NCBI GenBank assembly: GCA_024516035.1
Contig: CM044957.1
Coordinates: forward strand, 16,998,564 to 17,062,563
Direction: 5' to 3'
From: Bactericera cockerelli
Lineage: Eukaryota > Arthropoda > Insecta > Hemiptera > Triozidae
Length of the DNA stretch: 64,000 bases
Shown here: piece by piece, positions 10,613-64,000 of the stretch
Layout: each line of letters opens with the position of its first letter
Position numbering within the stretch: position 1 is the first letter of the stretch
Program-made: the position numbers and the translations under genes
The notes under the pieces: generated by a model
Databases searched by the model: none
What the model was told of the DNA's origin: nothing
What the model saw: the letters and a program-made list of their open reading frames with translations, nothing else

Positions 10613-10652
10613 GTGAGTTCCTCTCGTGCTGACTGAGACACCACTCTCACTC

Positions 10653-12005: not shown

Positions 12006-12602
12006 GCACCCTGAACCCCGCCCTGCAGGACAAATTCGGTCGCCCCAAGCGTGATATCAGCACCATCATCCACATTCTCAACGACCTGCTGTGTGCCACC
12101 CCTCAGTACAGAGCTGCCCGCACCACGGCCCTGGACATTGGCCCCGCCTCCATTGATACCAGCCCTGTGTCCAGCATCAAGTCTACCTGCAGTGGTAAGT
12201 ATATTGATACCAGCCCTGTGTCTAGCATCAAGTCTACCTGCAGTGGTAAGTATATTGATACCAGCCCTGTGTCCAGCATCAAGTCTACCTGCAGTGGTAA
12301 GTATATTGATACCAGCCCTGTGTCTAGCATCAAGTCTACCTTTAGTGGTAAGTATATTGATACCAGCCCTGTGTCCAGCATCAAGTCTACCTGCAGTGGT
12401 AAGTATATTGATACCAGCCCTGTGTCCAGCATCAAGTCTACCTGCAGTGGTAAGTATATTGATACCAGCCCTGTGTCTAGCATCAAGTCTACCTGCAGTG
12501 GTAAGTATATTGATACCAGCCCTGTGTCTAGCATCAAGTCTACCTGCAGTGGTAAGTATATTGATACCAGCCCTGTGTCTAGCATCAAGTCTTCCTGTAG
12601 TG
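12006..12602 (+). CDS. stx: Midnolin (stuxnet) conserved exon with nine alternative 5' splice sites
   Basis: The acceptor CCCCCAG (12001-12005) opens GTLNPALQ...[10 protein letters not shown] followed by [14 protein letters not shown], which aligns with GTLHPNCQ...GRPRRDIGTI and LQILNDLLSATRHY of human midnolin, part of the conserved substrate-binding core. The exon then runs into Ser-rich [15 protein letters not shown] and a 5' splice site, TG/GTAAGTAT. From there the exon end plus splice site is repeated nine times at exactly 51 bp. Possible exon ends are 12194, 12245, 12296, 12347, 12398, 12449, 12500, 12551 and 12602, giving exons of 189 to 597 nt. All end in phase 1 and join in frame to the exon at 12790. 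Read through, each unit encodes [17 protein letters not shown] without a stop. The coordinates give the longest form; the shortest form ends at 12194. Confidence 0.85.
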
Positions 12603-12610
12603 GTAAGTAT
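12152..12610 (+). repeat. 51-bp x 9 tandem array spanning an exon-intron boundary
   Basis: Nine units of 51 bp start with ATTGATACCAGCCCTGTGT and end with GTGGTAAGTAT. Units differ at few sites: C or T in GTCCAGC/GTCTAGC (units 2, 4, 7, 8 and 9 have T), CTTTAG in unit 4, and CTTCCTGTAG in unit 9. The eleven bases around each splice site are identical in all nine. Just after the array, CCCCGCCTCTATTAAT resembles the sequence before unit 1 (CCCCGCCTCCATTGAT), so the ancestral unit may have extended further. Confidence 0.95.
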
Positions 12611-12789
12611 AGTCCCCGCCTCTATTAATCGAAGGCACCTTTGAAAATTTACTTTATTTTGTTTTGTTTTTTTTTTCAAGTTCCGTTAATCCGCATTATT
12701 TTATAATTGAGTTTTCATATCCCACATCCTCTTTGTATCTGACAATTGCTATGAAGTGCCTAACATGTAACCCGGTGTTTCTGTTGCAG

Positions 12790-32229: not shown

Positions 32230-32545
32230 TCCACACCACATTGAATATGACTACTATGAGACCAGAGACAGTATGTGTGCAACAGTGTTTTTTTTTAATT
32301 TATTTGACAAATGGTCTTGACATATAATTATGAATGACCTGTTAGATATAAAAAAAATTAAGAAATAATTAGATATTAAATTATCATCATAGAGTGGTGT
32401 CATGGTGAACAATGGTAGCCAGACAGTGGAGGAATGACTCAGCAGTTCTACCACTGTCTTTACAAGGAGGCTAATAATTGACAAGGGCTCTCAAAACCAA
32501 GCCAATGCTGGTCTACTCTCTGTTTATATTCCCCCAGCCAGAAGT
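32230..32545 (-). repeat. Repeat family related to the 38-bp minisatellite source
   Basis: The reverse strand reads CTGGCTGGGGGAATATAAAC, AGAGAGTAGACCAGCATTGG, CTTGGTTTTGAGAGCCCTTG, TCAATTATTAGCCTCCTTGT and CACTGTCTGGCTACCATTGT. It aligns with 57735-57910. Its first 38 bp correspond to the tandem unit at 61567-62390. Confidence 0.75.
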
Positions 32546-46030: not shown

Positions 46031-46169
46031 ATGAGCTGTAGTGATTCAGATGATACAGACATACTGCTTCTCATTCCTCCTAACTTTTTCTCTACCAAGG
46101 CTGACACAGATGTAGAATCTAGACAAAGGAACTCTACTTCTGGAATCTTAAACTCTCATGTTGTCAAAG
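46031..46169 (+). CDS. Centrobin-like protein, exon 1 (start)
   Basis: Centrobin is a coiled-coil protein of the daughter centriole needed for centriole elongation and asymmetry; Drosophila Cnb marks the daughter centriole in neuroblasts. Identification rests on the coiled-coil start at 54281-56896. This exon begins after the acceptor AATTTCAG (46008). Two earlier ATGs (46021, 46026) are followed at once by stops, so ATG 46031 is chosen: MSCSDSDDTDILLLIPPNFF, an acidic start, then a polar stretch. It leaves one base at the donor AAAG/GTGGGT. All eleven exons in the window join in one open frame of 795 codons. Confidence 0.65.
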
Positions 46170-47376: not shown

Positions 47377-47905
47377 ATGGAGGATGTAACTTGTTTAATA
47401 TGCGGGAACATTTTGCAAGAAGGAGCGGATAGAGGAATATTAAAAGATAAGTCACTTCGAACGTTCATTGAGGCCATCACACGTGGTTACAGACTCAGAA
47501 ATCTGTTATACTTCACGAGAAGTGTCGCAAAGGTGTCTACACGAAGGAGTCAAACATTGTAAAGGCCGGAAAAGAAGCAGAAAACGGAAGCCGTGTGACA
47601 AGAGGCCGTGAGGAAATACCAAAATTCAACTTTAAGGAGCTCTGCTTCTGCTGTGGAAAAAGCTTCCTCTTCATAGACGTGAAACAGTGCGTGAAATTCA
47701 GACACAAGAAATAATGCAAAAAATTAAGGGTTCTGCAATTGCCAGAGGAGATGAAATGGGGGCGGTGGTATTGCGTAGGATGGCAACTGAATCAGACCTC
47801 GCAGCCGCTGAAGGCAAGTGCGATTCTTGTCGTGGTATGTTCTTTAATTCACGCCCATCTATGGATCCTGATGCAGCTCAAGGTATATCTGGACGAAGGG
47901 AGTGA
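47377..47905 (+). pseudogene. Cys-rich repeat-encoded protein, left-arm copy
   Basis: MEDVTCLICGNILQEGADRG, then ILKDKSLRTFIEAITRGYRL, then after frame changes GSRVTRGREEIPKFNFKELC, FCCGK, and finally GDEMGAVVLRRMATESDLAA with AEGKCDSCRGMFF. The CxxC and CxxCGK pairs suggest zinc binding. The last block resembles the DLVAAExKYHxxC segment common in transposon-linked proteins of animals. Frameshifts break the copy. The right-arm copy on the reverse strand at about 48990-49650 is also broken. Confidence 0.55.
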
Positions 47906-48596
47906 ATTAATATAGTAACTGGGGCTTTGAAGCCGAAAGACCTAAGTTTCCCAGTTACTGGGGTTTAACGAAGAAAAGGCCGCTGGTTCAATAACGCTAC
48001 TACGAAAGGTGTAGGTATTAAAGAGTATTAAATTTACACGGAAAGATAAAAGGAAGAAATAAACTACTACTATGAAATGAGATTGGATGGTCTTACCTTG
48101 AGTACTTGTACCAAGTACTTACGCCTTTAGAAGCGGATCAAAGGTGGTAGATCGAGGAAGGAGAGAAGACGTACCATGACCACTGATTGTTACAATCTGA
48201 ACGAGGCATTGTCGTTCCCAATCTATCGTACTGAATCTCTGGCTTTCTTTGTAAGATCATAGGATATGCCTATCATCTGATATCGAAGTGTTATCTCTAA
48301 CAGTTAGGGGCGTAGAGATCGAGTGATATGCGCGGGGTAAGTTTGGAGGCAATTCAAACTGGAGTCACATGGCGTGAACAGGGAGAGTTCGCTCAAACTG
48401 GTCACTAGTGGGATTGATTTCACCTCCAGTATGGAGGTTCTAGGTACTAACGACTTCTTAGGAGTGAAGCACTGAATAGTTGAATACCCCCCCATGTCCC
48501 CCCATAGCATGGAACGTATCATGGCCTTATCATCACTAAAAATTCATTAACTCAATTCGTATATGACAACGCCGATATAAACATGGATACCATTGA

Positions 48597-48881
48597 GCGC
48601 GCGATTAGCTCAGTGGTTAAGCACTCGCTTGCCATGCGGAAGGTCCCGGGTTCGAACCCCCGCGCCGACAAAAATTTGTATTCTTAATTTGGTAAGGGAT
48701 AACTTCCGGTGCGCTCGTGTTGACCCAGCACCTAAATGGGAAGTATTGTGTCACTTCTCGCCCATCAGAGGGGAGGCATACTACGGGATGGGCAGGCTAC
48801 AACACAGACCACAAGCGTCTACAGTAGCTCCTGTTTCATGGCTACGAAATAAAAAAGGCTGTGAAACACTCATCTTTTTTA

Positions 48882-48914
<33 letters not shown>

Positions 48915-48915
48915 T
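48597..48915 (+). repeat. tRNA-Gly-like SINE with poly(A) tail
   Basis: GCGCGCGATTAGCTCAGTGG, CTTGCCATGCGG (GCC in the anticodon position) and GGGTTCGAACCCCCGCGCCG form a recognisable tRNA head. The body (GTGCGCTCGTGTTGACCCAG, GAGGGGAGGCATACTACGG, CTACAGTAGCTCCTGTTTCA) and a ~30-base A-run follow. A second copy is at 55100-55447. Because both share the tail it is a SINE, not a tRNA gene. Confidence 0.85.
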
Positions 48916-48939
48916 GATGGCCATGATACGTTCTATGCC

Positions 48940-48962
48940 ATGGGGGGGGGGGGGGGGGGGTC
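48940..48962 (+). repeat. Poly-G run of about 20
   Basis: An uninterrupted G-run directly after CATG, near the centre of the inverted-repeat element, opposite CCCCCCCATGTCCCCCCATA at about 48487. The length is likely unstable. Confidence 0.8.
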
Positions 48963-49274
48963 TAAGATATGGAGGTTAGTACCCAGAACCTCCATATCTT
49001 TTCCACAGTAGAAGCAGAGCTCCTTGAAGTTGAATTTTGGTATTTCCTCACGGCCTCTTGTCACACGGCTTCCGTTTCTTGCTTCTTTTTCGGCCTTTAC
49101 AGTGTTTGACTCCTTTGTGTAACACTTCTCGTGAAGTATAACAGATTTCTGAGTCTGTAACCACGTTTCTTCTCCTGCTGTCCTGAACCCATCATTTCTT
49201 CTCCTGCTGTCCTCAATGAACATTCGAAGTGACTTTTCCTTTAATATTCCTCTATCTTTTCCTTTAATATGTTG

Positions 49275-49560
49275 TAGTCACTGTAGCCGAGTGAATTAGC
49301 GCGCTAGGCATTTCACTCATGGTGACCTGGGTTCTATTCCCAGCGGGATGGGATTTTTTCTGCTCTGTACTTGGATGTTCGGGGTCCACTCATACTTCGT
49401 GAGTCGTGAGGAAAAAAGAGTAGCTGCTTTGATATGAAGCAGCGACCAGTGGCTGAATCATAGGCACAAAAATAATACAAGATATTGTAAATTAAACTGG
49501 CAAAGTTCTCTGATTCTGCGCTACCCACTAAAATTGTGACATAACAACACAAAGAAAATG
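49275..49560 (+). repeat. SINE, GTAGCCGAGTGAATTAGCGC head
   Basis: Class-II-tRNA-like A box (GTAGCCGAGTGAATTAGC), B box GGGTTCTATTCCCAG, and body CTGCTCTGTACTTGGATGTT, GGGGTCCACTCATACTTCGT, TAGCTGCTTTGATATGAAGC. It has inserted in the right arm of the inverted-repeat element. Confidence 0.8.
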
Positions 49561-50887
49561 CATTTTTATTATTATATTATTAATATTCCTTCTTGCACAA
49601 TGTTCCCGCATATAAAACAAGTTACATCCTCCATAGTGTGCCTGCTTTCTTGAAATCACATGTTCAGTAAAGATCTTAGTAAAACTCAGTGCAAGTTTCT
49701 CAAAATTTTAAATTACCTATCGACTAAATTCAATAGATTACGTTCAGTTTTACTTGAAAAGTTGTAAGAATGTGATAATTTTAGAGTTCAGACGAAGTTT
49801 TTTGCGTTGCACTGCCTTAGCGAAAATTTGGCGCTAGGAACTCTTTCGGTTAAAAATTCATATCTCAGCACTGGAGTAAGAAAATTTCAAATTTCAAACA
49901 GTATTTTACTTAAAATTACATTTATACAAGTTCGATTCTATTAAATTTTTCAATTGGTGCAGTCCTTTTTGACTTACAGGCGTTAAAAGTTGAGAATTTT
50001 CAAAATTTGAGCTATGTTTGAAAAAATCACCCATCTTTGAGGAGCGATTGTAGCTGAAGGGCTTAACTTATTTTAATGATTCAAACGTCATTAGACGCAT
50101 AATTTTATGCTCCTTAGATAAGAACTGAGTAAAATTTTCTGTAGAATAAATACATTTTGAGTTATAAGAGCAATTTTAAAAGAAGTGCAAAAAATTTGCA
50201 CTGTTTAGGCCCTAAACTCGGAAGCACAACCTAAAATCCGTCGCAAACTCATATACCCATTATTCTTGACCCCTTTAAGGGTTTAAAACGATTTCCAGCT
50301 ATTGAGCAATTTTTTGCCGCTAGACCCCATTTTAGCACTAATTTGCCTGGGCTAATCTGCTTCAGAGGTAAAATAAAAATCTTTTCAGGCAGTTGAAGGA
50401 TAAAATTGAATTGAAAGCTTTAAAATTTGTCTTTACACATACATACTCAATTATATATTTATATTTATCAATAAAAAAAGGGCAATCTAAATTTAGAAAA
50501 GGTCTCAAGAAGAGACTTATGTAGAAACATTTTCTCCTTTATTTCTAATTGTTTCTTTCCTTTTTTTACCCCTTTTTTACTGTCTGGTCATTTCTAACTA
50601 CATGTCAAGATCATTAAAAAAAAATAGGTTTACAAATTTTTCATACATCCTATTTGTTTGTGATGAGTAGGACTGCTGATAAAATTTATGTGACGTTAAT
50701 ATATTTTTTTTCTTCAAGAGCCAAGCAGGATACAATATTTGGCTCTCCACAGTCCTGCCCTATGTTTAATGAGAGAAATATTCAGGCTGCTTTTATCACA
50801 GTACCTTGATCATATTTCTTTTAATATTAAAAGCATAGATAGATATGTTATTTTTATTTATATAATATTATGGAGAAATAATTTCAG

Positions 50888-51281
50888 GTATTATCAATCA
50901 CATCAATGACTTGGAGGACAGAGTTTTTACAATAGAAACCATAGACAGTGCCCGTACTTCCTGCTATAGTGACAGTGAAATGAATAACAGGTGTAGTAGT
51001 AATTACAAAAGCTATTTGAACTCACCTCTTCCTGGAGGAAGTTTAACTAGAACCCCAACAAAATATGGAAAAAATAGTACCTGCCATTCTACTCCAAGTC
51101 ATGTTCCAAGCTCTAGAAAACTTCATTCTAGAGAAAATCTATCCAAATCATTCTCTCCTCAAAGAAGTGTAAATTTAAATGAAAATAAAAAATATCCTCA
51201 AGGAAAACTGCTCACTGATATTGATGATTTTTACAACATGAATAAAGCCATCAACAAACACAATGATTCTGACAATTTAGG
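50888..51281 (+). CDS. Centrobin-like protein, exon 2
   Basis: Follows AATTTCAG (50887). The first two bases complete a Gly codon. It encodes IINHINDLEDRVFTIETIDS and a long Ser/Asn/Lys-rich, probably disordered stretch (PGGSLTRTPTKYGKNSTCHS, SSRKLHSRENLSKSFSPQRS), then LLTDIDDFYNMNKAI. It ends in GG with donor GTGAGT. TP and SP pairs are candidate sites for proline-directed mitotic kinases (inference). Confidence 0.65.
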
Positions 51282-51753
51282 GTGAGTTTATCTTAACTGT
51301 ACAGTCTGTACAGCATGTTAATAATTATGTATTGACAATAAATATTCAGGAGTATATTCCTGGATATAAATGAGGTGGTGTTTACTGCCATGTAAATCCT
51401 GAAAATTGCTTCCCCACCTTTATAGGAGTGATTTTTCTTCAAAACACAAGTACCTAAAGATCTCAATTTTAACATAACCTACTAATTATGGGTGGGAATA
51501 TTGAATAAACAACACATTGAGGTTGTTTTAGAAAAACCTTTAAAATGGAAGTTAATATTTTTCATAATTTTACATTTTTCTTTCTATGAGTTTTAATATT
51601 TCCTTTAAATAAATTCTTGTATTGAATGTAAAGCAATCTGTTTTCTTTTATACAAAACAAAATTATTAAATTCAATGCAGCTCTTCCTGGCGAGGTCAGT
51701 GAGTTTTTTTTTCTTTTTCCCCCCCTCATATAATGACCAAATTTTCATTTCAG

Positions 51754-52052
51754 AACAAGCATAGAAATGGACGTTTCCAATACAGTTGAAGGTACATTAT
51801 CCAATCTGTCTACATCTCCTCTTAAAGAAAACATCTTCAGTTCAAAAGAAACATTAGATCTGCCCGCAATTGAGAAAATTCTGAAGCAAGTAGATGCCAC
51901 ACAAAAGGAATTTGAAGAAAAACTAAAGCAAAAGGAAGGAGACTTCAATTTGAATGCCAAAAGAACCTATAGCTGTGGAAGCAATATTCAATCCATACCT
52001 GATTTGAATTTTGGTCTCAGAAACTTTCAGTATGACAATGCACAGCAATCAG
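51754..52052 (+). CDS. Centrobin-like protein, exon 3
   Basis: Acceptor CATTTCAG (51753). Encodes TSIEMDVSNTVEGTLSNLST, then LPAIEKILKQVDATQKEFEE and KLKQKEGDF, a short predicted helix, and a polar tail ending QSG at donor G/GTAATT. Phases on both sides match the neighbours. Confidence 0.65.
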
Positions 52053-52239
52053 GTAATTATCATTTAGACACTAACCCCCAAAAATTTGGGGGATTTGATT
52101 TAGGTTGAGCATAATTATCATAAGACTTTGGGTTTTGCAGTTATTTATTGACCATAGTCAATAGAATAAACAAGGTAATGTAACAAGATAATAACGAATA
52201 TTTAATTAAAAACATAACTTAATTCATTAAAAAAATATT

Positions 52240-52680
52240 GGCACAGTGAGAATCGAACCTGCAACTGAGAGGTTCGAACACAAACCTTTCTTCTCTTGTA
52301 TCCACGCGCACTGCAGAGCTCTATTGGCGTGGCGTCACCTTGACATTAAACTCCCTCTCAATCAAATGATAGTTGTTTCTAAAGTAAGCTAGCACACTAA
52401 GTCCCAGGTTTGCTTCTCACTGTGGCAATATTTTTATTTGACTAATGACCTGGGTTCGATCCACAGCAGGGTAGGATTTTTTCTGCTCTGTACTTGCATG
52501 TTTGGGGTCCACTCATATTTCGCGAGGAAAATGAGTAGCTGCTTTAATGTGAGCAGCAACCAGTGGCGGAATCATAGACAAAAATAAGATTTTGGAATAT
52601 TAAAGATAAGGAAAAGTCCTATAATTCTATGTTACCCACAAAAAATGTGATAAAAAATAATAACCCCAAATTAACACATT
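52240..52680. repeat. SINE pieces in centrobin-like intron 3
   Basis: An inverse tRNA-like piece (GAATCGAACCTGCAACTG, about 52250-52330) precedes a + strand copy of the CTGCTTTAATGTGAGCAGC family (GGGTTCGATCCACAGCAGGG, CTGCTCTGTACTTGCATGTT, 52445-52680). Confidence 0.65.
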
Positions 52681-52973
52681 GATTTATTTATTATTATATT
52701 GTTTATTTGATGGACCATAGTACCATACCTAAGTCCAGAACCATAAATTCAATTGTCCTGACCATACTATCGGATTCCTCATTGAAAAATACATTAGAGA
52801 CATCCATCACTTTATTATCATAACCTACTGGAAGGATATGCCAGCCACGCCACATATTGAAACTCCCACGTAAAATCCTATGGACCAACTAGAATGTAGA
52901 AGCCCTGTAGATGATTATCATTATTATACCTGTATTTACTTCTTTTTTTAACCTGTTTTTATTTATTTTACAG

Positions 52974-53160
52974 ATAATCCAGAAGAATCTGTTTTAAAAA
53001 AACATGTAACTCCATTAGAAGAAGCTAGGGAGTCTAAAGCTAAGAGAAAGTTAGACCTCAGGGATGTTGACCTCTCATATGCAGAAGAAATGCCAACTGG
53101 TATCCAGGAGCTCTGTAGATCTAACTGTCCATCACAAGAAGTTGCTCATCATGCCACCAA
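52974..53160 (+). CDS. Centrobin-like protein, exon 4
   Basis: Acceptor TATTTTACAG (52973). Encodes DNPEESVLKKHVTPLEEARE, SKAKRKLDLRDVDLSYAEEM, then PTGIQELCRSNCPSQEVAHH and AT, ending with two bases at donor AA/GTGAGT. Charged, not clearly conserved. Confidence 0.65.
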
Positions 53161-53204
53161 GTGAGTCTCCTGTTGTTTCTCAACACATATTATAACTTAT
53201 ATCT

Positions 53205-54240
53205 ATACTTATAAAAGAGAGTTTCACTCACTGATTCATCACTGTTTCTCCGAACTGGTAAGTCCTAGGAAGCTGAAATTTGGTAGGTAGCTTTGTCTTA
53301 TAGTCTAGATGTGCAATAAGACGAGATTTTTCGAAATTCCCACTACAACACCTGCCATTGGCGAAAAAGGATTTTTTGGTTTACGGCCATGCCTCGGCCT
53401 GCAAAGCGGGCGACAGCCCGCTAGTAACTTATATTAGTAACTAATCCTTGAACTAATTAACCGAACACAGTGAGTGAGCGAAGCGGCCTCACTAAGTGAG
53501 GTTCTGTTTTAACTTGAATACTAGACGATTTTTTGGCTTACTTTTGTCTGTTTTTCTGTCTGTCTGTTCCGCGATAACTCTCGACCGGATTCTTGTTGAA
53601 ATTTAGTATACATGTTTATTGGGGTCCTAAATTTTACCTATAGTTTTTGGGCCGAATTAGGCTACTCGGGGCCAAATGGGGGCCGTTTTTGTGAAAGATT
53701 AAAACGAGTTTTCTAATTATATTGAAACAAGCAAGGCTCTAGAATTTTTGTAGAGTTGTTGAGAAAATATATTTGAGTTCAGAAGTAAAATTTAATGATC
53801 GTGAAAGCTAAGGGGGCCGCACTGTGGTAAAAAATCGAAAAAGGTCCAAAAAAAAGGGCCAGTTGATATTTTTTTAATTAAAACCTATCGAGTGGTGTAT
53901 TGAATGAAAGGTCTCGATGTCCTCATTCTTTATTGAACATTTATAATGCGATAGTTGAATCTGTGTCAGGTTTACAGTTCGCAGAACCACTAGTATTGTT
54001 TATAAATACTACAATTACTACATATAAAAAACTACGTTATTTTAATAAATAATAATAATATCGCCTTATTTATACTGCCCGATTAGGACTATGAAGTCCC
54101 ATTATTCCAGCAGTAAGCCCAAGACGTATTATTATGTGATAAAAATCCCAAATGGAGGAATACTTGTCATGTCCCCGGCTGGGTTTCGAACCCGCGACCT
54201 CTGGATTCACAGAGTGCTAACTTTACCTCTAAATTTACCG
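53205..54240. repeat. Repeats in centrobin-like intron 4
   Basis: 53205-53425 is a copy of the repeat also at 5870 and 21040 (CAACACCTGCCATTGGCGAA, GGGCGACAGCCCGCTAG). 53455-54000 is another element starting GTGAGTGAGCGAAGCGGCCT. An inverse tRNA-like piece (GGGTTTCGAACCCGCGACCT) lies at about 54178-54230. Confidence 0.6.
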
Positions 54241-54280
54241 CCAAAATAGAACAATTTTATCTTATTGTCTCCCGTTTCAG

Positions 54281-54407
54281 TATCCCTGCCAAACTACTTT
54301 CACTGAGTGAGCTCTGGAAACAGGATAGGAATGGAGAGAGTCCCTCTAAATCTTCAAACAACACTGTACTGAGACGGAAAATCGAAGAAGAAAAATATAG
54401 GAGAGAG
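54281..54407 (+). CDS. Centrobin-like protein, exon 5: entry to the coiled coil
   Basis: Acceptor CCCGTTTCAG (54280). The first base completes an Asn codon. Encodes IPAKLLSLSELWKQDRNGES, PSKSSNNTVLRRKIEEEKYR and RE. With the next exon this gives EEEKYRREHCEQLIQQLQ, parallel to human centrobin DSEHTRRKHCERHIQSLQ. This alignment, continued in the next exon, is the main ground for the name. Donor GAG/GTAAAC, phase 0. Confidence 0.7.
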
Positions 54408-54844
54408 GTAAACTTATTAGCAATTATTATGCTGGTCATCTATTTTCACTGTTAACCCTATTTTTTGTTGTCAGTGACATTCATTCGGTGACAGTGAAAA
54501 TTGAAATGTGACCAAAAACTTGAAGAAGTAGCCCAAAAAGTGGCCCTATGAATGTATTTCTTGAAACCCATCTTGTGGTGTATCAAATGAAAGATATACA
54601 TATTTTTTTCCCCCGAATGCAAAATTTACATGATATTTTACAATTTATGTATAAAATAAAACTTGGAAAGTCTCATAGTTAAAGAAATACTAGTTGTTCA
54701 TTTTTTTGTTAATCACAATTACTACTCAAAATGTTACTAAGTTGTTGTTTAACTTAGAACTTGAACAATCAACCTCCAGATTGCAAGTCCACCGCCTTAT
54801 GAATCAAAAACTTACTATTATTATTGATTGGTAGTCTGGTGTAT

Positions 54845-55045
54845 CGTGCATTGGTAGTCAAATGGTTAAGGTGCTAGTCTAGTAATCCAGATACCGTAGG
54901 GATCCATTGGTTCAAATCCCACCCAATTCATGAATTTTTCCTGATTTATTGGAGTATGTAACCACAATAATAAGACTCTCAGGGTTAGGTGGTAGAAAAT
55001 GTTTTGAGCAATTACCTCGCCTGGTGGTTAACTTCCCCTAAAGAG
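54845..55045 (+). repeat. tRNA-derived SINE, second copy of the 40972 family
   Basis: TTGGTAGTCAAATGGTTAAG, CTAGTAATCCAG, GGTTCAAATCCC, then AGGGTTAGGTGGTAGAAAAT. Confidence 0.8.
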
Positions 55046-55099
55046 TGTTACAGTCGAACCTGCATATAAGCAAACAATTTACATGTCTATAAGGGAAAA

Positions 55100-55447
55100 T
55101 AACCTCTTCGTAAGAGAAATCTGGATATCCGCATGGCAAGCGGGTGCTTGCCATGCGGATTATCTAATATAATATATAAAAGGTCCCGGGTTCGATCCCC
55201 CGTGCCGACAAAATTTTGTATTCTTAATTTGGTTACAATTGATTGTAAGGGATACCTTCTGGTGCGCTCGTGTTGACCCAGCACCTAATTGGGAAGTATT
55301 GTGTCACTTCTCGCCTATCAGAGGGGAGGCATACTACGGAATGGGCAGGCTACAACACAGACCACAAGCGTCTACAGTAGCTCCTGTTTCATGACTACGA
55401 AATAAAAAAGGCTGTGAAACACTCATCTTTAAATAAATAAAAAAAAT
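55100..55447 (+). repeat. tRNA-Gly-like SINE, rearranged head
   Basis: Same body as 48597-48915 (GTGCGCTCGTGTTGACCCAG, GGAGGCATACTACGGAATGG). The head is broken, with CTTGCCATGCGGAT partly duplicated inversely as ATCCGCATGGCAAG just before it. It ends in AAATAAATAAAAAAA about 50 bp before the acceptor array. Confidence 0.75.
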
Positions 55448-55489
55448 CCGATCCCTGGAGTTCTGATACATCCAGGTTTGACTGTATTA

Positions 55490-56696
55490 TTATCATTGGT
55501 GCAGCACTGCGAGCAACTGATCCAGCAGCTACAGTTCCTTATTATTATTATTGGTGCAGTACTGCGAGCAGCTGATCCAGCAGCTACAGTTCCTTATTAT
55601 TATTATTGCTGCAGCACTGCGAGCAACTGATCCAGCAGCTACAGTTCCTTATTATTATTATTGGTGCAGCACTGCGAGCAACTGATCCAGCAGCTACAGT
55701 TCCTTATTATTATTGCTGCAGCACTGCGAGCAACTGATCCAGCAGCTACAGTTCCTTATTATTATTATTGGTGCAGCACTGCGAGCAACTGATCCAGCAG
55801 CTACAGTTCCTTATTATTATTGCTGCAGCACTGCGAGCAACTGATCCAGCAGCTACAGTTCCTTATTATTATTATTGGTGCAGCACTGCGAGCAGCTGAT
55901 CCAGCAGCTACAGTTCCTTATTATTATTATTGGTGCAGCACTGCGAGCAGCTGATCCAGCAGCTACAGTTCCTTATTATTATTGCTGCAGCACTGCGAGC
56001 AGCTGATCCAGCAGCTACAGTTCCTTATTATTATTATTATTGGTGCAGCACTGCGAGCAGCTGATCCAGCAGCTACAGTTCCTTATTATTATTATTGGTG
56101 CAGCACTGCGAGCAACTGATCCAGCAGCTACAGTTCCTTATTATTATTATTATTGGTGCAGCACTGCGAGCAACTGATCCAGCAGCTACAGTTCCTTATT
56201 ATTATTATTGGTGCAGCACTGCGAGCAGCTGATCCAGCAGCTACAGTTCCTTATTATTATTATTGGTGCAGCACTGCGAGCAGCTGATCCAGCAGCTACA
56301 GTTCCTTATTATTATTATTGGTGCAGCACTGCGAGCAACTGATCCAGCAGCTACAGTTCCTTATTATTATTATTGGTGCAGCACTGCGAGCAGCTGATCC
56401 AGCAGCTACAGTTCCTTATTATTATTATTGGTGCAGCACTGCGAGCAGCTGATCCAGCAGCTACAGTTCCTTATTATTATTATTATTGGTGCAGCACTGC
56501 GAGCAGCTGATCCAGCAGCTACAGTTCCTTATTATTATTATTATTGGTGCAGCACTGCGAGCAGCTGATCCAGCAGCTACAGTTCCTTATTATTATTATT
56601 GGTGCAGCACTGCGAGCAGCTGATCCAGCAGCTACAGTTCCTTATTATTATTATTGGTGCAGCACTGCGAGCAGCTGATCCAGCAGCTACAGTTCC
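55490..56696 (+). repeat. Tandem array of 22 units spanning a 3' splice site
   Basis: Each unit has an intronic part, (TTA)n then TTGGTGCAG or TTGCTGCAG, and 34 nt of exon starting CACTGCGAGCAGCTGATCCA and ending CAGTTCC. I counted 22 copies. Unit lengths are 52, 55 or 58 bp depending on the number of TTA triplets, so every unit is 1 modulo 3. Variants are AGCAACTG or AGCAGCTG, GGTGCAG or GCTGCAG (units 3, 5, 7, 10), and GCAGTACTGC in unit 2. The last copy runs into the true exon at 56697. Confidence 0.95.
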
Positions 56697-56896
56697 GTCT
56701 GCTGGAGGAGCAGGAGAAGGTGGCGGTGGCAGTGAGGGTGGACGGGGAGAAGGACAGAGCTATCAGAGCCCTGCAGGGGGGCTGGGCCCAGCTGGTGACG
56801 CACTGGAGAGAGATAGAAGAGCAGAGACACGAGCTCACCAATCAGTTGCTCACGGAGAAGCAAGAGAGACAGAACGAGGTGCACGAGCTCAACAAG
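56663..56896 (+). CDS. Centrobin-like protein, exon 6: conserved coiled coil
   Basis: Starts at the last of 22 tandem acceptors (TTGGTGCAG ending 56662) because only this one keeps the frame (78 codons, phase 0 on both sides). Encodes HCEQLIQQLQFRLLEEQEKV, AVAVRVDGEKDRAIRALQGG, WAQLVTHWREIEEQRHELTN and so on. Human centrobin has HCERHIQSLQTRVLELQQQL and AVAVAADRKKDTMIEQLDKT, LARVVEGWNRHE here. The exon is GC-rich, unlike exons 1-5. Confidence 0.75.
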
Positions 56897-56939
56897 GTAA
56901 GGATTTGTGTTTCTAACAGTTGATAAGTTATATTTTAGA

Positions 56940-57230
56940 CTTCTGACGAAACAAGTTTTCTTGTTCCATGATAACGCTCGCCCCTACTCGGCTCGAAAGA
57001 CTCGAGATCTCCTTAATTCATTCAGATGGGAAGTTTTTAGCCACCCACCATATTCACCTGATCTGGCATCAAGTGACTTATTTCCCCATCTGAATGTTCA
57101 TTTGGAAGGGAAAAGCTTCCGAAACGACGCGACGACGAGCTCAAGACCGCTGTCCGTGCTTGGTTGGACCTCTCGTTTGGACACTCAGTTTTTCAAGGAG
57201 GGTATATATAAATTGCTCCCCCGGTTCTAA
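56940..57230 (+). pseudogene. mariner-type transposase fragment in intron 6
   Basis: LFHDNARPYSARKTRDLLNS, FRWEVFSHPPYSPDLASSD match the second and third catalytic regions of a mariner-like transposase (HDNARPHxA and HPPYSPDLAPSDYHLF). Small deletions then shift the frame; ELKTAVRAWLD follows in another frame. It belongs to a different mariner lineage from the element at 36288. Confidence 0.85.
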
Positions 57231-57401
57231 AAATGCATTGATCGAGCTGGGAATAATGTAGAAAAATGATAGGATTCTACTGAACACAATACAATAAAAT
57301 ATGTTGAATTTGTTGTTGAATTTTTCATAGCGTAGACCTTATTTTTGAGACGCCCCTCGTATTGTCAGTCTAATATACTAGATATTTCACTTCTTCCCTA
57401 G

Positions 57402-57656
57402 AAACTGGAACGTTACGAGCGAGAAGTGTCGCAAGTGGTGAATCTGGCGGCCGGTTACAAGGAGAAGGCGGAGAGAGCCGATGCTGACCGAAGCGAAGTT
57501 CAAAGCGAGGCCCAGACAGCTGTCGAGAGCATGCGAGAGAGTCTGGCGCTCATGGATCAGACCCTGGCAGAGACCAGGCAGAAGCTAGACGACTACCAGA
57601 GGGACAGGAAGCTGCTAGCAGACAAGTTGTCGCTCACTGAGGATGAGCTTGATAAG
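57402..57656 (+). CDS. Centrobin-like protein, exon 7: coiled coil
   Basis: Acceptor TTCTTCCCTAG (57401). 85 codons, phase 0 on both sides: KLERYEREVSQVVNLAAGYK, EKAERADADRSEVQSEAQTA, VESMRESLALMDQTLAETRQ and KLDDYQRDRKLLADKLSLTE. Heptad-like pattern throughout, typical for the central rod of centrobin. Donor AAG/GTAATA. Confidence 0.7.
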
Positions 57657-57734
57657 GTAATACAACATATAGTATACCTGTTTCCTGGACCTGGGTGTCT
57701 TATGTTGGAATGAATAAATATTGGATTTAATGAC

Positions 57735-57910
57735 CAGTAGTCTGGCTGGGGGACTATAAACAGGAAGTAGACCAGCATTGGCTTGGTTCTGGGGCCCTTG
57801 TCAATTATTAGCCTCCTTGTAAAGACAGTGGTAGAACTGCTGAGTCATTTCTTCACTGCCTGGCTACCATCGTTCACGATGACGCCACCCTTTGATGATG
57901 AATGGTCTGT
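57735..57910 (+). repeat. Transposable-element copy, source of the 38-bp unit
   Basis: Begins AGTCTGGCTGGGGGACTATA then AACAGGAAGTAGACCAGCAT, and continues TTGGCTTGGTTCTGGGGCCC, TTGTCAATTATTAGCCTCCT. The reverse copy at 32230-32545 shares the whole. The first 38 bp match the minisatellite unit at 61567-62390. Confidence 0.75.
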
Positions 57911-58655
57911 ATCTTGTGTTTCACATATTTTCGTTCATGTACAAATTTGTGACTCTTGTCCAACTCATATTAATCATAAGATTTAATTTTCATTCATTCT
58001 GCCTTAACTTCCTAATCTGCGTCGTTTTGAAAGATCTTGTTCTTTTCAGCCTCTCCAAAACCATTCCTATTGCTCCACCTATCCTCAACTTATTCCAACC
58101 TATACTTCTGTCTGTTCCCTCTCAGCTGTTGCAAGAAACATCCAATGTGCCCTACTCCTTAAATTACATGTTTGTGAGTATAAAACAAGTTATCAATGAT
58201 TTCTCCCTCTCCTTTTTTCTATTAAAAAGTCCACGTCAGTATGAAATTGTATTAATAAGTTTTTAACATTACCACTAGCATAGCCATTAGTTAAAATCAA
58301 GTTGACTTTTGTGTCCAGACTAATAGCTTTGAGACTAATAGCTTGAAGAAATTTGACTTAAAGAAAAAGTCATTATTATTTGGTTACTACAGGTCTTAAG
58401 GAAATTGAACTGAATTAAAAAATAATCTCTATTTATTATAATTATTTACATTGAAAAAATACCTCCTGAGCTAATTACTAACTTTTCGGAGAGGTATATT
58501 TTGGAAGAAAATGTCGTAGGCATTAACAGTATTAGCACCTTCCATACTCAAGCTTTGTTTTGAACTTTTATGTAAATATTCAATGTTTCTTATACCTACC
58601 TGTAAATAAAACTTGATTTGTTTCGTTTTTCAATAAATATCATGTCGGCTTACAG

Positions 58656-58838
58656 GAAAAACTCTTGACCAAAGAAGTGAAGGACCAATTAGAGGAGTTG
58701 AAAATAACGCTGAAAATATCCAAGGACAAAATTGAGAATCTTGAAAAGAGTCTAGACGCAGAAAGCAAAAGAAGTAGAAAGCTGGAGGAAGAGTTGCAAG
58801 ATGCCAGAGCCACGTGCGAAGAAGTCTTGAGGAAAGAG
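58656..58838 (+). CDS. Centrobin-like protein, exon 8: coiled coil
   Basis: Acceptor CGGCTTACAG (58655). 61 codons: EKLLTKEVKDQLEELKITLK, ISKDKIENLEKSLDAESKRS, RKLEEELQDARATCEEVLRK and E. Strong heptad pattern. Donor GAG/GTAAGA, phase 0. Confidence 0.7.
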
Positions 58839-59009
58839 GTAAGAGCTTGTTTTAGCATCTAATGCTGTTCTATCTTAGGGACAGTAAAAACTAAAGAAGG
58901 CCAATCATATTAACCACCACAATTGTTCTGATTTATTTGGCGATCATGCACTTTGGTTTTATTTGGACAAACAAAATGTACCAATGTTTGGCATTTTGAC
59001 AGGTGATGA

Positions 59010-59620
59010 ACCGACCTGAGTAGCTTGATCGATAAGGCAGTGGACAAGTAACCTGGAGTTGGTGGTTCAAGTCCCGGTTTCAGCGTAGATTTAGTAAAGC
59101 GAGTTTAAGTAGTTGTGATATCACGAAAGTGATTAACACAAATATGATAAAAAAAAGGTGATGACATGACACTTTTTTGAGGTTCGAGTTCTGGTCACGC
59201 CAAATATTCTAAATGATTTATTGTCTTGAAACTTTCTACTTGATCAAATACATTACATGTCTATAAATCAAATTAAAATGTAATCGCAAAAAGAACTGGT
59301 CGCGTTTTTTTTTTTACGACGTCCCCTGAGATTAAAAAAAGATGTCAGTCCGTGTGTTACAAACGTAAAAAGCAACGTGCAAAAATCCCTGTGCTTTGTG
59401 GACAGTGTTCACTAAATTAAAAATATCAATAAAATTAAATAACTAAGATCAAATTTGGTAAAAATATTTAAATGACTTGTTTATTTCAATAATTTAACCG
59501 ACCTCATGAATCAAGCGGCGGACTCGTAACCTGGAGGTTGGTGGTTCAAGTCCCTCGTATGGTAAATATTTAGTAAGGCGAGTTCAAGTTCTTGTGCTTA
59601 ACATAAATCTGATAACTTAT
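59010..59620 (+). repeat. Two SINE copies of the GATATCACGAAAGTGATTAA family
   Basis: Copy 1 at about 59010-59160: TGAGTAGCTTGATCGATAAG, GGTGGTTCAAGTCCCGG, tail AGTTGTGATATCACGAAAGT. Copy 2 at about 59495-59620 has the head CATGAATCAAGCGGCGGACT and a shorter tail. The inverse copy is in midnolin at 11780. Confidence 0.7.
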
Positions 59621-59625
59621 TTTAG

Positions 59626-59931
59626 CTGTATTTTTCTTTCTAACCAAAAAAAAAAAAAAAATTCCAGGTTAAGTTTTTTCCAAATATTTCCATTTTATTC
59701 CAAGGTCAACTTCACTTTCTAACCAAAGTTAACCAAACGGGAATAAAATGAACCAAACAGGAAGCAATAATTTTCTACATCCATTTTGGTTAACTTTGGA
59801 AGAGGAAATTTTTCCTCTTCCTCTTCCAAAAGAAATTTTTCCTCTTCCAAAAGAAAAATGACTTGTTTCCAGTTTGGTTCATTTTATTCCCGTTTGGTTA
59901 ACTTTGGTTAAAAAGAAAAATACGGCTTTTG
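59626..59931. mobile_element. MITE abutting the exon 9 acceptor
   Basis: Inverted ends GCTGTATTTTTCTTTCTAAC and the complement of GTTAAAAAGAAAAATACGGC, with inner palindromic words (TAACCAAACGGGAATAAAAT facing ATTTTATTCCCGTTTGGTTA). It ends about 11 bp before the exon acceptor CAG (59940-59942). A related copy is at about 62902-63210. Confidence 0.75.
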
Positions 59932-59942
59932 ATGATTTCCAG

Positions 59943-60169
59943 CAAAAAGCTCAAGAGGACCTGGCAAGCCTGGTGGCGCAGTCCGATTCAATGCGGAGTG
60001 AGCTGCGCTCAGTGTATCAGAACCAGCTGAACCTGACTGTGAAGGAGAAGCTCAGAGAGTTCCAAGCCCAGCTGGACGCCTCAGAGCTCACCCTGCATCG
60101 CAGCTTCCAGCAGAAGGAGAAGACCATTGTGGAGAACGCCGCCAAACAGTTGAAGAACATTTCCGAAAA
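59943..60169 (+). CDS. Centrobin-like protein, exon 9: coiled coil
   Basis: Acceptor GATGATTTCCAG (59942). 75 codons plus two bases: QKAQEDLASLVAQSDSMRSE, LRSVYQNQLNLTVKEKLREF, QAQLDASELTLHRSFQQKEK, TIVENAAKQLKNISE. Matches centrobin's region of dispersed RQAASL-type helices only loosely. Donor AA/GTAAGC. Confidence 0.65.
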
Positions 60170-60589
60170 GTAAGCTCATATAAAAATACACTGTCACAAT
60201 TAAGGACATATCACTTCATCGTAACACTCCTGATTTCTGAAGAAGAAAAAAAAAATATCTATACAAAACCCAATACATGTATTTCCTATAACATTATAAC
60301 ATTCAACCCATTTCTCTTGAAATTTGTTTTTTTATCGTAGATAAATATTTTATTTACAATCTTAACTCATAGACGACCGAACTTCATATTACATTAAATT
60401 AAATTAAATACATACGTGTACCAGTAGCATAGCGTGGATTTGAAGCTTGGGCGAGCTCGAGCTGAATAAGTAATACCAAGTAAAAATAAACTGGTGCGAA
60501 TATCACACCACTTTTTACTAATAAAAATTAAAATGAAAATCAGTCAGTAAAAAAAGAAATGTAACTTAAAAAAAAATAGGAAAAACATT

Positions 60590-60700
60590 TGAGTGCTAAA
60601 ATTGAACCCCAGGAACTCAGAGCACGCCGCGCTACCGCTTGAGCCATGGCTCCTCATATGGCTAGCGAGTGCTTAACCACTGAGCTATTCGTGCGCTCGA
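60590..60700 (-). repeat. tRNA-like SINE head fragments, reverse
   Basis: The reverse strand reads AGCTCAGTGGTTAAGCACTC, matching the head of the SINE at 48597, next to a second tRNA-like piece (GCTCAAGCGGTAGCGCGGCG). Confidence 0.55.
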
Positions 60701-60776
60701 ATATCTGATTTTATTTGTGTTACCTAACCTTCGGTCCAAACTTAGAGACAGGAGATATCTAATGAGCTTATAGAAT

Positions 60777-61005
60777 TTAAAATACAAATTTTAAAACACC
60801 TCCCGCATATCTGCTGTCCTCTTCATTGTTCCCAACACACTCGCCGCATTTCCAATCTGAACAGCCAAACTTATTCTTTGCATTAGATATGATTTTGCTC
60901 TCTTCTCTCCTGTCACACATGTTATCCGCTCTCCCAACTCTTTTAAAAACTTCAATCCATCTTTGCAAATTGGCTTCATAGTTTCAATTTGCGAAGGTCC
61001 CATAG
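60777..61005 (-). pseudogene. Fragment of repeat-encoded protein in intron 9
   Basis: LGERITCVTGEKRAKSYLMQ then RISLAVQIGNAASVLGTMKR on the reverse strand, similar to the fragment at 41300-41460. Open for about 60-70 codons. Family not identified. Confidence 0.5.
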
Positions 61006-61012
61006 TTAATAG

Positions 61013-61256
61013 AATGGGTGAGTAGAAGAACCAGGAATGTCAAAAATCGATTTTTTTTTTTTTTCGTAGAAGAAGAAAGAATGTACTCTTTTCTATCATC
61101 TCTGTGAATATGAAGGAGAAATACCCCTTATAAGTATAGTTTTTTTCGATTTGAAAGTGGGGGAAGCATACTCATTAGCATGATAATATTTGTCTTATTT
61201 TTGCTTTCCTGAAAAGTGGATTTTTGACATTCCTGGTTCTTCTACTCACCCATTCA
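61013..61256. mobile_element. MITE with ~35-bp inverted ends, 44 bp before exon 10
   Basis: AATGGGTGAGTAGAAGAACC... at the left is the exact inverse of ...GGTTCTTCTACTCACCCATT at the right, continuing inward over AGGAATGTCAAAAATC. The interior is non-coding with a T-run. Confidence 0.85.
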
Positions 61257-61299
61257 ATTTGGCTCCAAATATCTCATTGACCACCGGTTGCTTCATCAG

Positions 61300-61522
61300 G
61301 CTGCTCCTGGATTTCAAGTCCAAGTGCGACGTCTACGAGGCTGAGACCAAGAGACTGAAGGCAGAGCTGGCGCAGAGGGAGGGGAAGCTGAGGGAGACGC
61401 AGCAGCTGCTGAGGGAGGAGGGCAGGAAGAGAGAGCTCATGGCTAAGAAGGTGGAGAGTGTCATGCAGAACCAGCTGCAGCAAGCCATCCATATGATCAC
61501 CTCGGATGTGACTAACTTGCGG
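61300..61522 (+). CDS. Centrobin-like protein, exon 10: coiled coil
   Basis: Acceptor TTGCTTCATCAG (61299). The first G completes a Lys codon. Encodes LLLDFKSKCDVYEAETKRLK, AELAQREGKLRETQQLLREE, GRKRELMAKKVESVMQNQLQ, QAIHMITSDVTNLR. Donor CGG/GTAAAC, phase 0. Its 3' part with the donor is repeated twice further on (62391, 62751). Confidence 0.7.
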
Positions 61523-61566
61523 GTAAACTATATTGCGCTACGCTATTATGTTATGTGACTGGGGGT

Positions 61567-62402
61567 CTGGCTGGGGGACTATAAACAGGGAGGAGACCAG
61601 CAGTCTGGCTGGGGGACTATAAACAGGGAGGAGACCAGCAGTCTGGCTGGGGGACTATAAACAGGGAGGAGACCAGCAGTCTGGCTGGGGGACTATAAAC
61701 AGGGAGGAGACCAGCAGTCTGGCTGGGGGACTATAAACAGGGAGGAGACCAGCAGTCTGGCTGGGGGACTATAAACAGGGAGGAGACCAGCAGTCTGGCT
61801 GGGGGACTATAAACAGGGAGGAGACCAGCAGTCTGGCTGGGGGACTATAAACAGGGAGGAGACCAGCAGTCTGGCTGGGGGACTATAAACAGGGAGGAGA
61901 CCAGCAGTCTGGCTGGGGGACTATAAACAGGGAGGAGACCAGCAGACTGGCTGGGGGACTATAAACAGGGAGGAGACCAGCAGTCTGGCTGGGGGACTAT
62001 AAACAGGGAGGAGACCAGCAGACTGGCTGGGGGACTATAAACAGGGAGGAGACCAGCAGTCTGGCTGGGGGACTATAAACAGGGAGGAGACCAGCAGACT
62101 GGCTGGGGGACTATAAACAGGGAGGAGACCAGCGGACTGGCTGGGGGACTATAAACAGGGAGGAGACCAGCAGACTGGCTGGGGGACTATAAACAGGGAG
62201 GAGACCAGCAGACTGGCTGGGGGACTATAAACAGGGAGGAGACCAGCAGACTGGCTGGGGGACTATAAACAGGGAGGAGACCAGCAGACTGGCTGGGGGA
62301 CTATAAACAGGGAGGAGACCAGCAGTCTGGCTGGGGGACTATAAACAGGGAGGAGACCAGCAGTCTGGCTGGGGGACTATAAACAGGGAGGAGACGCAGC
62401 AG
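61567..62402 (+). repeat. 38-bp minisatellite, 22 units
   Basis: Unit CTGGCTGGGGGACTATAAAC plus AGGGAGGAGACCAGCAGT, regular 38-bp spacing from 61567 to 62365 (22 starts). Variants alternate GCAGT and GCAGA, with one GCGGA. The last unit fuses into exon-10-like sequence at GGAGACGCAG. Confidence 0.95.
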
Positions 62403-62519
62403 CTGCTGAGGGAGGAGGGCAGGAAGAGAGAGCTCATGGCTAAGAAGGTGGAGAGTGTCATGCAGAACCAGCTGCAGCAAGCCATCCATATGATCACCGC
62501 GGATGTGACTAACTTGCGG
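62391..62519 (+). repeat. Partial copy of exon 10 with donor, copy 2
   Basis: GAGACGCAGCAGCTGCTGAG through AACTTGCGG/GTAAAC repeats the last ~43 codons of exon 10 in frame (ITAD instead of ITSD). It could be a cassette exon if the GACGCAG upstream acts as an acceptor, but there is no pyrimidine tract, so use is doubtful. Confidence 0.8.
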
Positions 62520-62572
62520 GTAAACTATTATTACGCTACACTTTGTTTCTATTATGTTATGTGACTGGGGGT

Positions 62573-62762
62573 CTGGCTGGGGGACTATAAACAGGGAGGA
62601 GACCAGCAGACTGGCTGGGGGACTATAAACAGGGAGGAGACCAGCAGTCTGGCTGGGGGACTTTAAACAGGGAGGAGACCAGCAGTCTGGCTGGGGGACT
62701 ATAAACAGGGAGGAGACCAGCAGTCTGGCTGGGGGACTTTAAACAGGGAGGAGACGCAGCAG
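62573..62762 (+). repeat. 38-bp minisatellite, 5 units
   Basis: Second block of the same unit, starts 62573 to 62725, preceded by a copy of the intron start (ATTATGTTATGTGACTGGGG). The block shows that exon end, intron start and minisatellite were duplicated together. Confidence 0.9.
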
Positions 62763-62879
62763 CTGCTGAGGGAGGAGAGCAGGAAGAGAGAGCTCATGGC
62801 TAAGAAGGTGGAGAGTGTCATGCAGAACCAGCTGCAGCAAGCCATCCATATGATCACCTCGGATGTGACTAACTTGCGG
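62751..62879 (+). repeat. Partial copy of exon 10 with donor, copy 3
   Basis: As copy 2 but with GAGAGCAGG (Ser instead of Gly) and ITSD as in exon 10. Donor CGG/GTAAAC retained. Confidence 0.8.
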
Positions 62880-62901
62880 GTAAACTATTACGCTACACTT
62901 T

Positions 62902-63220
62902 AGCCGTATTTTTCTTTCTAACCAAAGTGGATTCAACTGGAATAAAATGAACGAACTGGAAGAAACTCATTTTTCTTTTGGAAGAGGAAAAATCATCTTG
63001 CAGTTTGGTTAACCAAAATGGAAGTAGAAAATTCTTGCTTCCACTTCTTTTATAGGTTAAGTCCATTGTTTATCTTTAAAAGTACCGAAACGCATTTTTC
63101 TTTCACGAATAGTGGGGAAGCTAAACTGGAAATATTTGGAATAAAATAGAAATAATATATGGAAAAACCGAACCTAGAAAAAAAAAAATCATCCAAAGAA
63201 AAATACACCTCTTATTTCTA
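62902..63220. mobile_element. MITE related to 59626-59931
   Basis: GCCGTATTTTTCTTTCTAAC at the left and GAAAAATAC at the right. It interrupts the intron copy at GCTACACTTT, which resumes after 63210 (TTTCTATTACGCTACACTTT). Confidence 0.6.
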
Positions 63221-63260
63221 TTACGCTACACTTTGTTATTAGATAGACAAGTTCACTTAA

Positions 63261-63524
63261 TCCAAGCATTGGCGAAAGATTTAGAAGTTTGAGTAGTTAT
63301 GATATCACGAAAGTGATTAACACAAATATGATAATTTAACTTTAATCCAACCATTGGCGAAAGATTTAGAAGTTTGAGTAGTTGTGATACCACGAAAGTG
63401 ATTAACACAAATATGATAACTTAACTTTAATCCAAGCATTGGCGAAAGATTTAAAAGTTTGAGCAGTTGTGATACCACGAAAGTGATTAACACAAATATG
63501 ATAACTTAACTTTAATCCAAGCAT
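63261..63524 (+). repeat. 85-bp tandem repeat, three copies plus a partial
   Basis: Units start TCCAAGCATTGGCGAAAGAT at 63261, 63346, 63431 and 63516. Each carries the SINE tail word GATATCACGAAAGTGATTAA (or GATACCACG), so the array grew from a SINE tail. Confidence 0.9.
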
Positions 63525-63883
63525 TGAGTTCTTATATTTTATTTTTATCTTCAAGAATTGTAATGAACTGGTGACCCAACTGTGATAAGCTAATGTGAAC
63601 ATCACACGCCTTCCTTCCACCACTGTCGACCTTTCTTTTTTAAGGAACAGATGCTTTATATAGGTGGCCTGGACAAACGCTAGTTTTACCACACCAATAA
63701 AACATAATCTTGAACTACTGGGACTAATGTATCTGTATATTCTATGTAATAAATACCTATGTATCTTAGAAGCCTAATAAAAATGGCTTAAGATGGGTCC
63801 TCTGTAAACAAAACAAAAAAATATGAAAAATAGAACAAATGATTTATTATTATTATTATTATTGGTTTCCTTTTTCCCCTCAG

Positions 63884-64000
63884 ATGAGCAAAGAATCGCT
63901 AGCCAGCAAAAGACACTCGAGTGAGCAGAGTCTCATCGACAGCACCACCACAGAGGCGGCTCCAGAGCCAGCGTCCAGCCGAGCCCAGCCCTATCCTGCC
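63884..64000 (+). CDS. Centrobin-like protein, exon 11 (cut by window end)
   Basis: Acceptor TTTTTCCCCTCAG (63883). 39 codons to the window edge: MSKESLASKRHSSEQSLIDS, TTTEAAPEPASSRAQPYPA. Ser/Pro/Ala-rich, like the disordered tail after the centrobin rod. The exon continues beyond 64000. Confidence 0.65.
   Translation, partial: MSKESLASKRHSSEQSLIDSTTTEAAPEPASSRAQPYPA

Follow-up and report, generated by a model that had tools for sequence, protein, structure and literature searches.

A 22-unit minisatellite across a 3' splice junction in a centrobin-like gene of a psyllid, and similar arrays at other exon borders

Choice among near-identical splice sites is usually tested with two-site constructs. 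In a centrobin-like gene of the psyllid Bactericera cockerelli, an acceptor and the beginning of its exon stand in 22 tandem copies. This locus raises the questions of which copy yields the protein, and of whether such an array is peculiar to the gene. The window analysed here is a stretch of 64,000 nucleotides (C3:16998564-17062563); the genome searched is a 565-Mb assembly of 1,032 contigs.

The array and the reading frame

Tandem Repeats Finder identifies one array at 55485-56696, with a period of 55, 22.0 copies, 95% matches and a score of 2148. By direct parsing, the 34-nt exon start is present 22 times, first at 55505 and last at 56663. Both methods thus agree with the preliminary description, which had reported an acceptor plus the first 34 nt of the exon in 22 copies. 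The array is minisatellite-like, with a unit that runs across the exon-intron boundary, as placed from the frame and from homologues. The 21 spacings are each 52, 55 or 58 bp, and all are 1 modulo 3, as had also been noted, because the units differ in length only in their count of TTA triplets. Other variation is slight: besides the 3-5 triplets, there is GGTG or GCTG ahead of the AG, CAA or CAG as the fourth codon, and one C to T change. Unit 1 has its own left edge, and the variants are interleaved among the remaining units. The AG is intact in all 22 acceptors. The array exon itself occurs a single time in the one assembly searched. The features of the gene around the array are as follows.

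46031..46169, + strand: exon with the start codon (MSCSDSDDTDILLLIPPNFFSTK...), placed by comparison of homologue N-termini
54281..54407, + strand: upstream exon, ending in ...AGGAGAGAG, with donor GTAAAC at 54408
55481, + strand: putative ancestral branch-point A (TTGAC), lying 24 nt ahead of acceptor 1 and not part of the repeat unit
55485..56696, + strand: 22-copy tandem array, (TTA)n TTGGTGCAG plus 34 nt of exon (Tandem Repeats Finder and direct parsing)
55505, + strand: first (intron-side) acceptor copy; TGA reached in unit 3
56608, + strand: acceptor copy 21; frame shifted
56644, + strand: putative branch-point A (CTTAT, at the joint between units), 19 nt before acceptor 22
56663..56896, + strand: array exon of 234 nt, from acceptor 22 to donor GTAAGG; HCEQLIQQLQFRLLEEQEK...ELNK
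57402..57656, + strand: next exon

The donor upstream of the array lies at 54407/54408, just where it had been placed before, and the introns flanking the array exon measure 2,255 and 505 nt. Use of acceptor 22 leaves 748 codons without a stop across the ten exons that extend from 50888 to 64000, or 795 codons in eleven exons if the start exon at 46031 is included. From exon 54281 onwards, the frame is open with this acceptor and with none of the other 21, all of which lead to a premature stop. Acceptors 1 to 20 run into a TGA in the second unit downstream, 40-43 codons past the junction, while acceptor 21 shifts the frame and meets a stop at 57485 in the next exon. That is, the frame shift described for one unit upstream is found at acceptor 21, but the TGA begins at two units upstream, not at three. 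The premature stops from acceptors 1-21 lie upstream of further exon junctions.

In all ten homologues found, the sequence EEEKYRR-H..E..-EEQEK runs uninterrupted, without an insert, at the point of the array. The nearest named ones, from Cacopsylla melanoneura, Cyamophila willieti and Diaphorina citri, show 79-81% identity over the part searched. The product of acceptor 22 is identical to the four closest homologues over HCEQLIQQLQFRLLEEQEK, and the array exon, 82-85% identical to them, is among the best conserved of the gene. For the two exons scanned, there was no Pfam match above the curated cut-off; nor was there an Rfam match within the window. Frame and homologues together argue strongly, if indirectly, for the last acceptor as the authentic one, giving the ancestral protein; the earlier claim that it alone keeps the conserved frame was borne out.

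Choice among the acceptors

We consider it very probable that a minisatellite has arisen across a 3' splice junction, that splicing to acceptor 22 restores the ancestral mRNA, and that the same process is at work at many borders. This explanation builds on the structure, the frames, the conserved protein and the abundance in a sample of exons; from these we infer the acceptor used, the reason for its use, decay and the mutational mechanism. The first event would be a tandem duplication taking in the end of the intron along with 34 nt of the exon start; the later rise to 22 units would be due to slippage or unequal exchange. Splicing would run from 54407 to the last acceptor (56662/56663), the remaining 21 copies being lost as part of the intron, and slips to upstream acceptors would lead to premature stops and probably to decay. 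The same process would have placed tandem splice-site arrays at many exon borders of the genome. Duplication of a junction would be harmless if the exon-side copy is used, because the intron and exon sides both stay whole, and any unit length would therefore be allowed.

The likeliest reason for use of the exon-side copy is exon definition. Acceptor 22 would win because it alone adjoins the full exon, with its purine-rich sequence and the donor at 56896. Within the first 110 nt, there are 10 GAR motifs after acceptor 22, 5 after acceptor 21, and 2 after each of acceptors 1-20. Both flanking introns exceed 200-250 nt, the length at which splicing changes mode according to an earlier study that PMC9225289 cites. 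PMC9225289 itself reports that long introns favour those sites that lie nearest across the exon, but its section 9 states that long introns only weaken the upstream preference of 3' sites. The intron-side proximity rule told there (Reed and Maniatis) would predict an upstream acceptor and so count against acceptor 22. Against it, too, acceptor 1 retains the native intron context. Acceptor 22 is without the branch-point candidate of acceptor 1. In the accessible part of PMC5389562, beta-globin 3' sites were duplicated, with 14, 55 or 205 nt of exon at the upstream one; splicing was inefficient and used the distal site only. The accessible part of PMC3087553 suggests, from Adh3 data and RT-PCR of globins, that splicing stays regular despite comparable arrays in amphioxus.

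Site strength was set aside as the reason for acceptor 22. In a nine-site matrix made from the acceptors of the same gene, acceptor 22 scores -4.05, and units 3 and 5 score 0.1 and 1.0; the matrix does not favour unit 22. Leave-one-out scores of the nine acceptors range from -9.1 to 7.6, and thus the matrix decides nothing. Nor is unit 22 set apart from the other acceptors by local RNA accessibility.

Junction arrays elsewhere in the window and in the genome

The preliminary description had treated this array as a special case, a view that the rest of the window and of the genome does not support: it is one of many junction arrays in the genome, and two more lie within the window.

12152..12611, + strand: midnolin homologue, nine tandem 51-bp copies of an exon end, donor AGTG/GTAAGTAT
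61300..61522, + strand: later centrobin-like exon, with its 3' part and donor likewise present in further copies
61565..62413, + strand: 38-bp array of 22.4 copies between copies of the end of exon 61300 (Tandem Repeats Finder)
62390..62519, + strand: second copy of the 3' part of exon 61300, donor CGG/GTAAAC; out of frame
62750..62879, + strand: third copy of the end of exon 61300, with donor; out of frame

The end of exon 61300 thus has three donors (after 61522, 62519 and 62879), and the frame is open with the first only. In the midnolin homologue, nine of nine donors keep the frame; use of downstream donors would add 17 amino acids per unit, and the last one would leave an intron of 187 nt. 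Compared by eye, the stretch of this array is single-copy in the homologues of three named psyllids and of one further source, and the first donor gives the junction seen in the relatives. In all three arrays of the window, then, the putative ancestral junction is the copy adjoining the exon body. For the window taken alone, a chance estimate for at least two arrays at junctions (P about 0.01) was post hoc, and was set aside.

The abundance of such arrays was assessed in exons taken from protein-domain searches, about 1 kb each, chosen by hand with their sequence still unseen: 40 of the 134 kinase matches, 39 of the 77 for myosin and 20 of the 85 for kinesin. These are partial-domain exons, some of them from duplicated genes, and their junctions were positioned by a rough consensus with assumed weights, doubtfully so at loci L050, L112 and L124. 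Locus L118 was unused. Kinase loci L011-L040, mostly whole-domain exons, are outside the counts; looked over only, 5 of these 30 contain repeated 25-mer blocks, none of which reaches the central match region.

Among the 198 junctions of the 99 exons, 23 lie inside tandem arrays, or roughly one in nine. The kinase and myosin exons together account for 22 of 158 junctions, in 20 of 79 exons, with 8 acceptors and 14 donors and with scores of at least 218. An earlier count of 15 of 60 exons included L080, a repeat in a pyrimidine tract without AG, which is excluded from the 22. Frequencies differ by family (myosin 14/78, kinase 8/80, kinesin 1/40; Fisher p 0.019 for myosin versus kinesin). By the same rule, 601 of 20,000 bases (3.0%) are in arrays across 20 arbitrary kilobases at round coordinates, and one array there scores above 200. 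The sampled units show their junctions plainly, as in TTCAAG/GTAAGG, CTTAAG/GTGAGT and TCCTCAG/GGATAAGG, and the 22 kinase and myosin arrays reach 5 to 143 nt into the exons.

Recurrence of 16-mers within each locus gives a similar picture. The junction 16-mer recurs at 31 of the 157 edges from kinase and myosin exons and at 2 of the 40 from kinesin exons; for 16-mers lying 60 nt or deeper in the exon, the recurrence is 2-5%. For intron 16-mers it is 15-20% when all edges are taken together, since the arrays extend into the intron, and at edges with a non-recurring junction it is 1-4% up to 132 nt and 4-8% farther out. For comparison, recurrence is 58/1,753 in the arbitrary kilobases, 5/532 and 2/521 in two stretches beside the window, and 288/3,721 in the window itself, arrays included.

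A word test was applied to the whole genome, counting three copies of a word with gaps of 30-60 nt, with the reversed word as control. Triples of the donor word GGTAAGT are found at 6,693 places, versus 686 for its reverse. The matches listed for it, in the first 5.2 Mb of C1, make up about five arrays, so places are not to be equated with arrays. The control word GATGGTA gives 1,327 versus 999, and is partly contaminated by donors GATGGTAAG. Triples of the acceptor word TTTCAGG are not clearly enriched genome-wide (744 versus 631). The claim for the genome as a whole therefore rests on the donors and on the exon sample, and the few arrays among kinesins, together with the acceptor word, imply an abundance that is uneven and better shown for donors. 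Junction arrays thus appear at many exon borders of the genome, unevenly between gene families. One donor array, at C1:2167714-2169561, has 32-bp units (CTGGCTAAG/GTAAGTACAGG...) over at least 1.8 kb and is longer than the centrobin-like array.

Decoy sites are well preserved. Of the 134 copies detected in 24 arrays, 132 have an intact AG or GT, a count that leaves out L050 and would miss copies with more than 7/24 mismatches. A test for selection on the decoys (2/268 mismatches at AG/GT versus 180/2,948 at other bases, p 2e-5) was rejected, as the difference is mainly an edge effect: in a per-position control, mismatch rates are 0.4-4% for the central bases, up to 8 nt from the junction, versus 0.7% at the site. 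Since neighbouring bases are kept nearly as well as AG and GT, we read the retention as probable recent expansion or homogenisation, not selection; the decoys are not disarmed.

Among the domain matches, some of equal score come in pairs on one contig, about half a megabase apart (for example C5:9995179/C5:10461277 and C2:26186574/C2:25657269), which we take to be segmental duplications or uncollapsed haplotypes in the assembly.

Known systems and alternative explanations

Arrays of this kind have been described in amphioxus as mirages, Adh3 and the globins BflGb6 and BflGb9 being among the cases in the accessible parts of PMC3087553 and PMC3902484; the latter adds PGBD5 and mentions troponin C. 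As in those accounts, the psyllid units are tandem and cover the exon-intron border at 5' or 3' junctions, many with AG or GT kept, and the centrobin-like array has the structural features of an amphioxus-type mirage. In this respect too, it is not the special case it had been held to be. As far as those texts go, there are nevertheless differences: the psyllid array has 22 copies, whereas BflGb6 has 6 and 3 depending on haplotype, and splicing and length instability are reported in amphioxus, whereas the psyllid arrays are known from the sequence of one assembly. The present arrays are, moreover, in an insect, and were sampled over a genome with controls. The variable internal tandem repeats of human duplicated genes (accessible part of PMC2812944) likewise lie at exon borders and can alter splicing or give new introns; they belong to recent primate paralogues, and half are in coding sequence, whereas the psyllid array has its decoys on the intron side, in a gene whose array exon turned up a single time in the genome. 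Experimentally duplicated 3' sites (Reed and Maniatis 1986, as told in parts of PMC9225289 and PMC5389562) also present near-identical acceptors, with a little exon sequence attached to the upstream one, but there are two in a test substrate and 22 in this natural gene. NAGNAG tandem acceptors share the competition of AGs at one junction; their spacing is 3 nt, whereas here it is 52-58 nt with the whole junction copied, and the array is not of the NAGNAG kind.

Among the papers listed by searches of the openly licensed literature, none reported such arrays in psyllids or other insects. The accessible part of the Diaphorina citri genome paper (PMC11659978) reports none, and that of the work on amphioxus huntingtin (PMC2206037) has nothing on the question. 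What is new seems to be their abundance in an insect. One natural gene presents 22 acceptors and another nine donors, and the sample suggests many more. Copy number, spacing, intron length and frame all vary among the arrays, and the junction reads of one RNA library could measure choice among their sites. Junction arrays may also confuse gene prediction.

To what extent the borders themselves are favoured is less certain. We see an even chance that they are hot spots of tandem duplication, with thousands of junctions carrying intact decoys and the exon-side copy still picked. If so, the genome would be a natural large-scale experiment of exon definition versus proximity, and the border preference, which asks for a mutational cause if it holds, would suggest that transcription or splicing is linked to the way the duplications arise. 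The main alternative is that junctions merely tolerate random tandem duplications, those in exons being purged and those in introns drifting, with no preference for the junction. This is a real possibility, though short of an even one. It is consistent with the limited reach of the arrays into exons (5 to 143 nt), with the absence of a frame preference among sampled unit lengths (8, 5 and 9 of the 22 are 0, 1 and 2 modulo 3), and with the recurrence of intron 16-mers at 15-20%, about like the junction itself, although mostly where the junction recurs too. The density of 23/198 is, however, above that of arbitrary sequence, with 3.0% of bases in arrays, and the recurrence of intron 16-mers is 1-8% at edges whose own junction is unrepeated; these figures include few intron stretches farther than 300 nt from an exon. 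The same unit lengths bear on a filter by frame, whereby arrays entering the mRNA, that of the nine donors for one, need a unit length divisible by three. The midnolin unit of 51 bp is stop-free and would stand beside a 187-nt intron if the last donor is used, and the centrobin arrays, of 55 and 38 bp and with stops, stand beside long introns. In the larger sample there is no excess of multiples of three (8/22), so a filter on unit lengths was rejected, and we regard this explanation as improbable.

Two other readings concern the array itself. Were the upstream acceptors largely used, the allele would give mostly unproductive mRNA, and the array would be a hypomorphic or regulatory poison region whose copy number tunes the output of centrobin. 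The intact AG of 22 of 22 acceptors would suit this, as would the branch-point candidate retained by acceptor 1 with no AG between, the intron-side proximity rule (as given in part of PMC9225289) and the inhibition of splicing in vitro when two 3' sites are occupied concurrently (as given in part of PMC5389562). But the frame of the gene is open over eleven exons, the array exon is well conserved, and free use of decoys would disable many genes, given that 23 of the 198 junctions sampled lie in arrays; we hold this reading to be unlikely. An assembly artefact, that is, a false tandem expansion from long reads or pooled individuals, is highly improbable. False tandem duplications in the Diaphorina citri assembly, likely from the several psyllids used, are described in the accessible part of PMC11659978, and a midnolin exon in the window has frame breaks resembling small errors. 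Yet the units of the centrobin-like array differ by interleaved point variants and TTA counts, units differ from locus to locus, the arrays lie at exon borders, and the similar arrays of amphioxus were judged real, as far as the available text of PMC3087553 and PMC3902484 shows.

Several minor observations were made in the window. The midnolin exon at 10371-10613 has its frame broken relative to homologues, by what we regard as assembly indels or a damaged allele. The gene at 23852-25220, between the two array-bearing genes, looks like one for the splicing factor SYF2, and none of the arrays listed by Tandem Repeats Finder covers the junctions visible in it. In the centrobin arrays, the 38-bp unit is one that is also found elsewhere, in single or few copies, at 57740-57777 and 32506-32542 of the window and at 787-872 and 9651-9723 of stretch L009, and therefore may be part of a dispersed element. 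Presumed remnants of a mariner-like transposase lie at 36458-37518 and at about 56955-57200, the second in the intron right after the array exon. In the first intron of the centrobin-like gene, at about 46477-50345, two inverted copies of several hundred bases, seen by eye, surround an interior of 3-4 kb; this arrangement resembles a DNA transposon bounded by long terminal inverted repeats.
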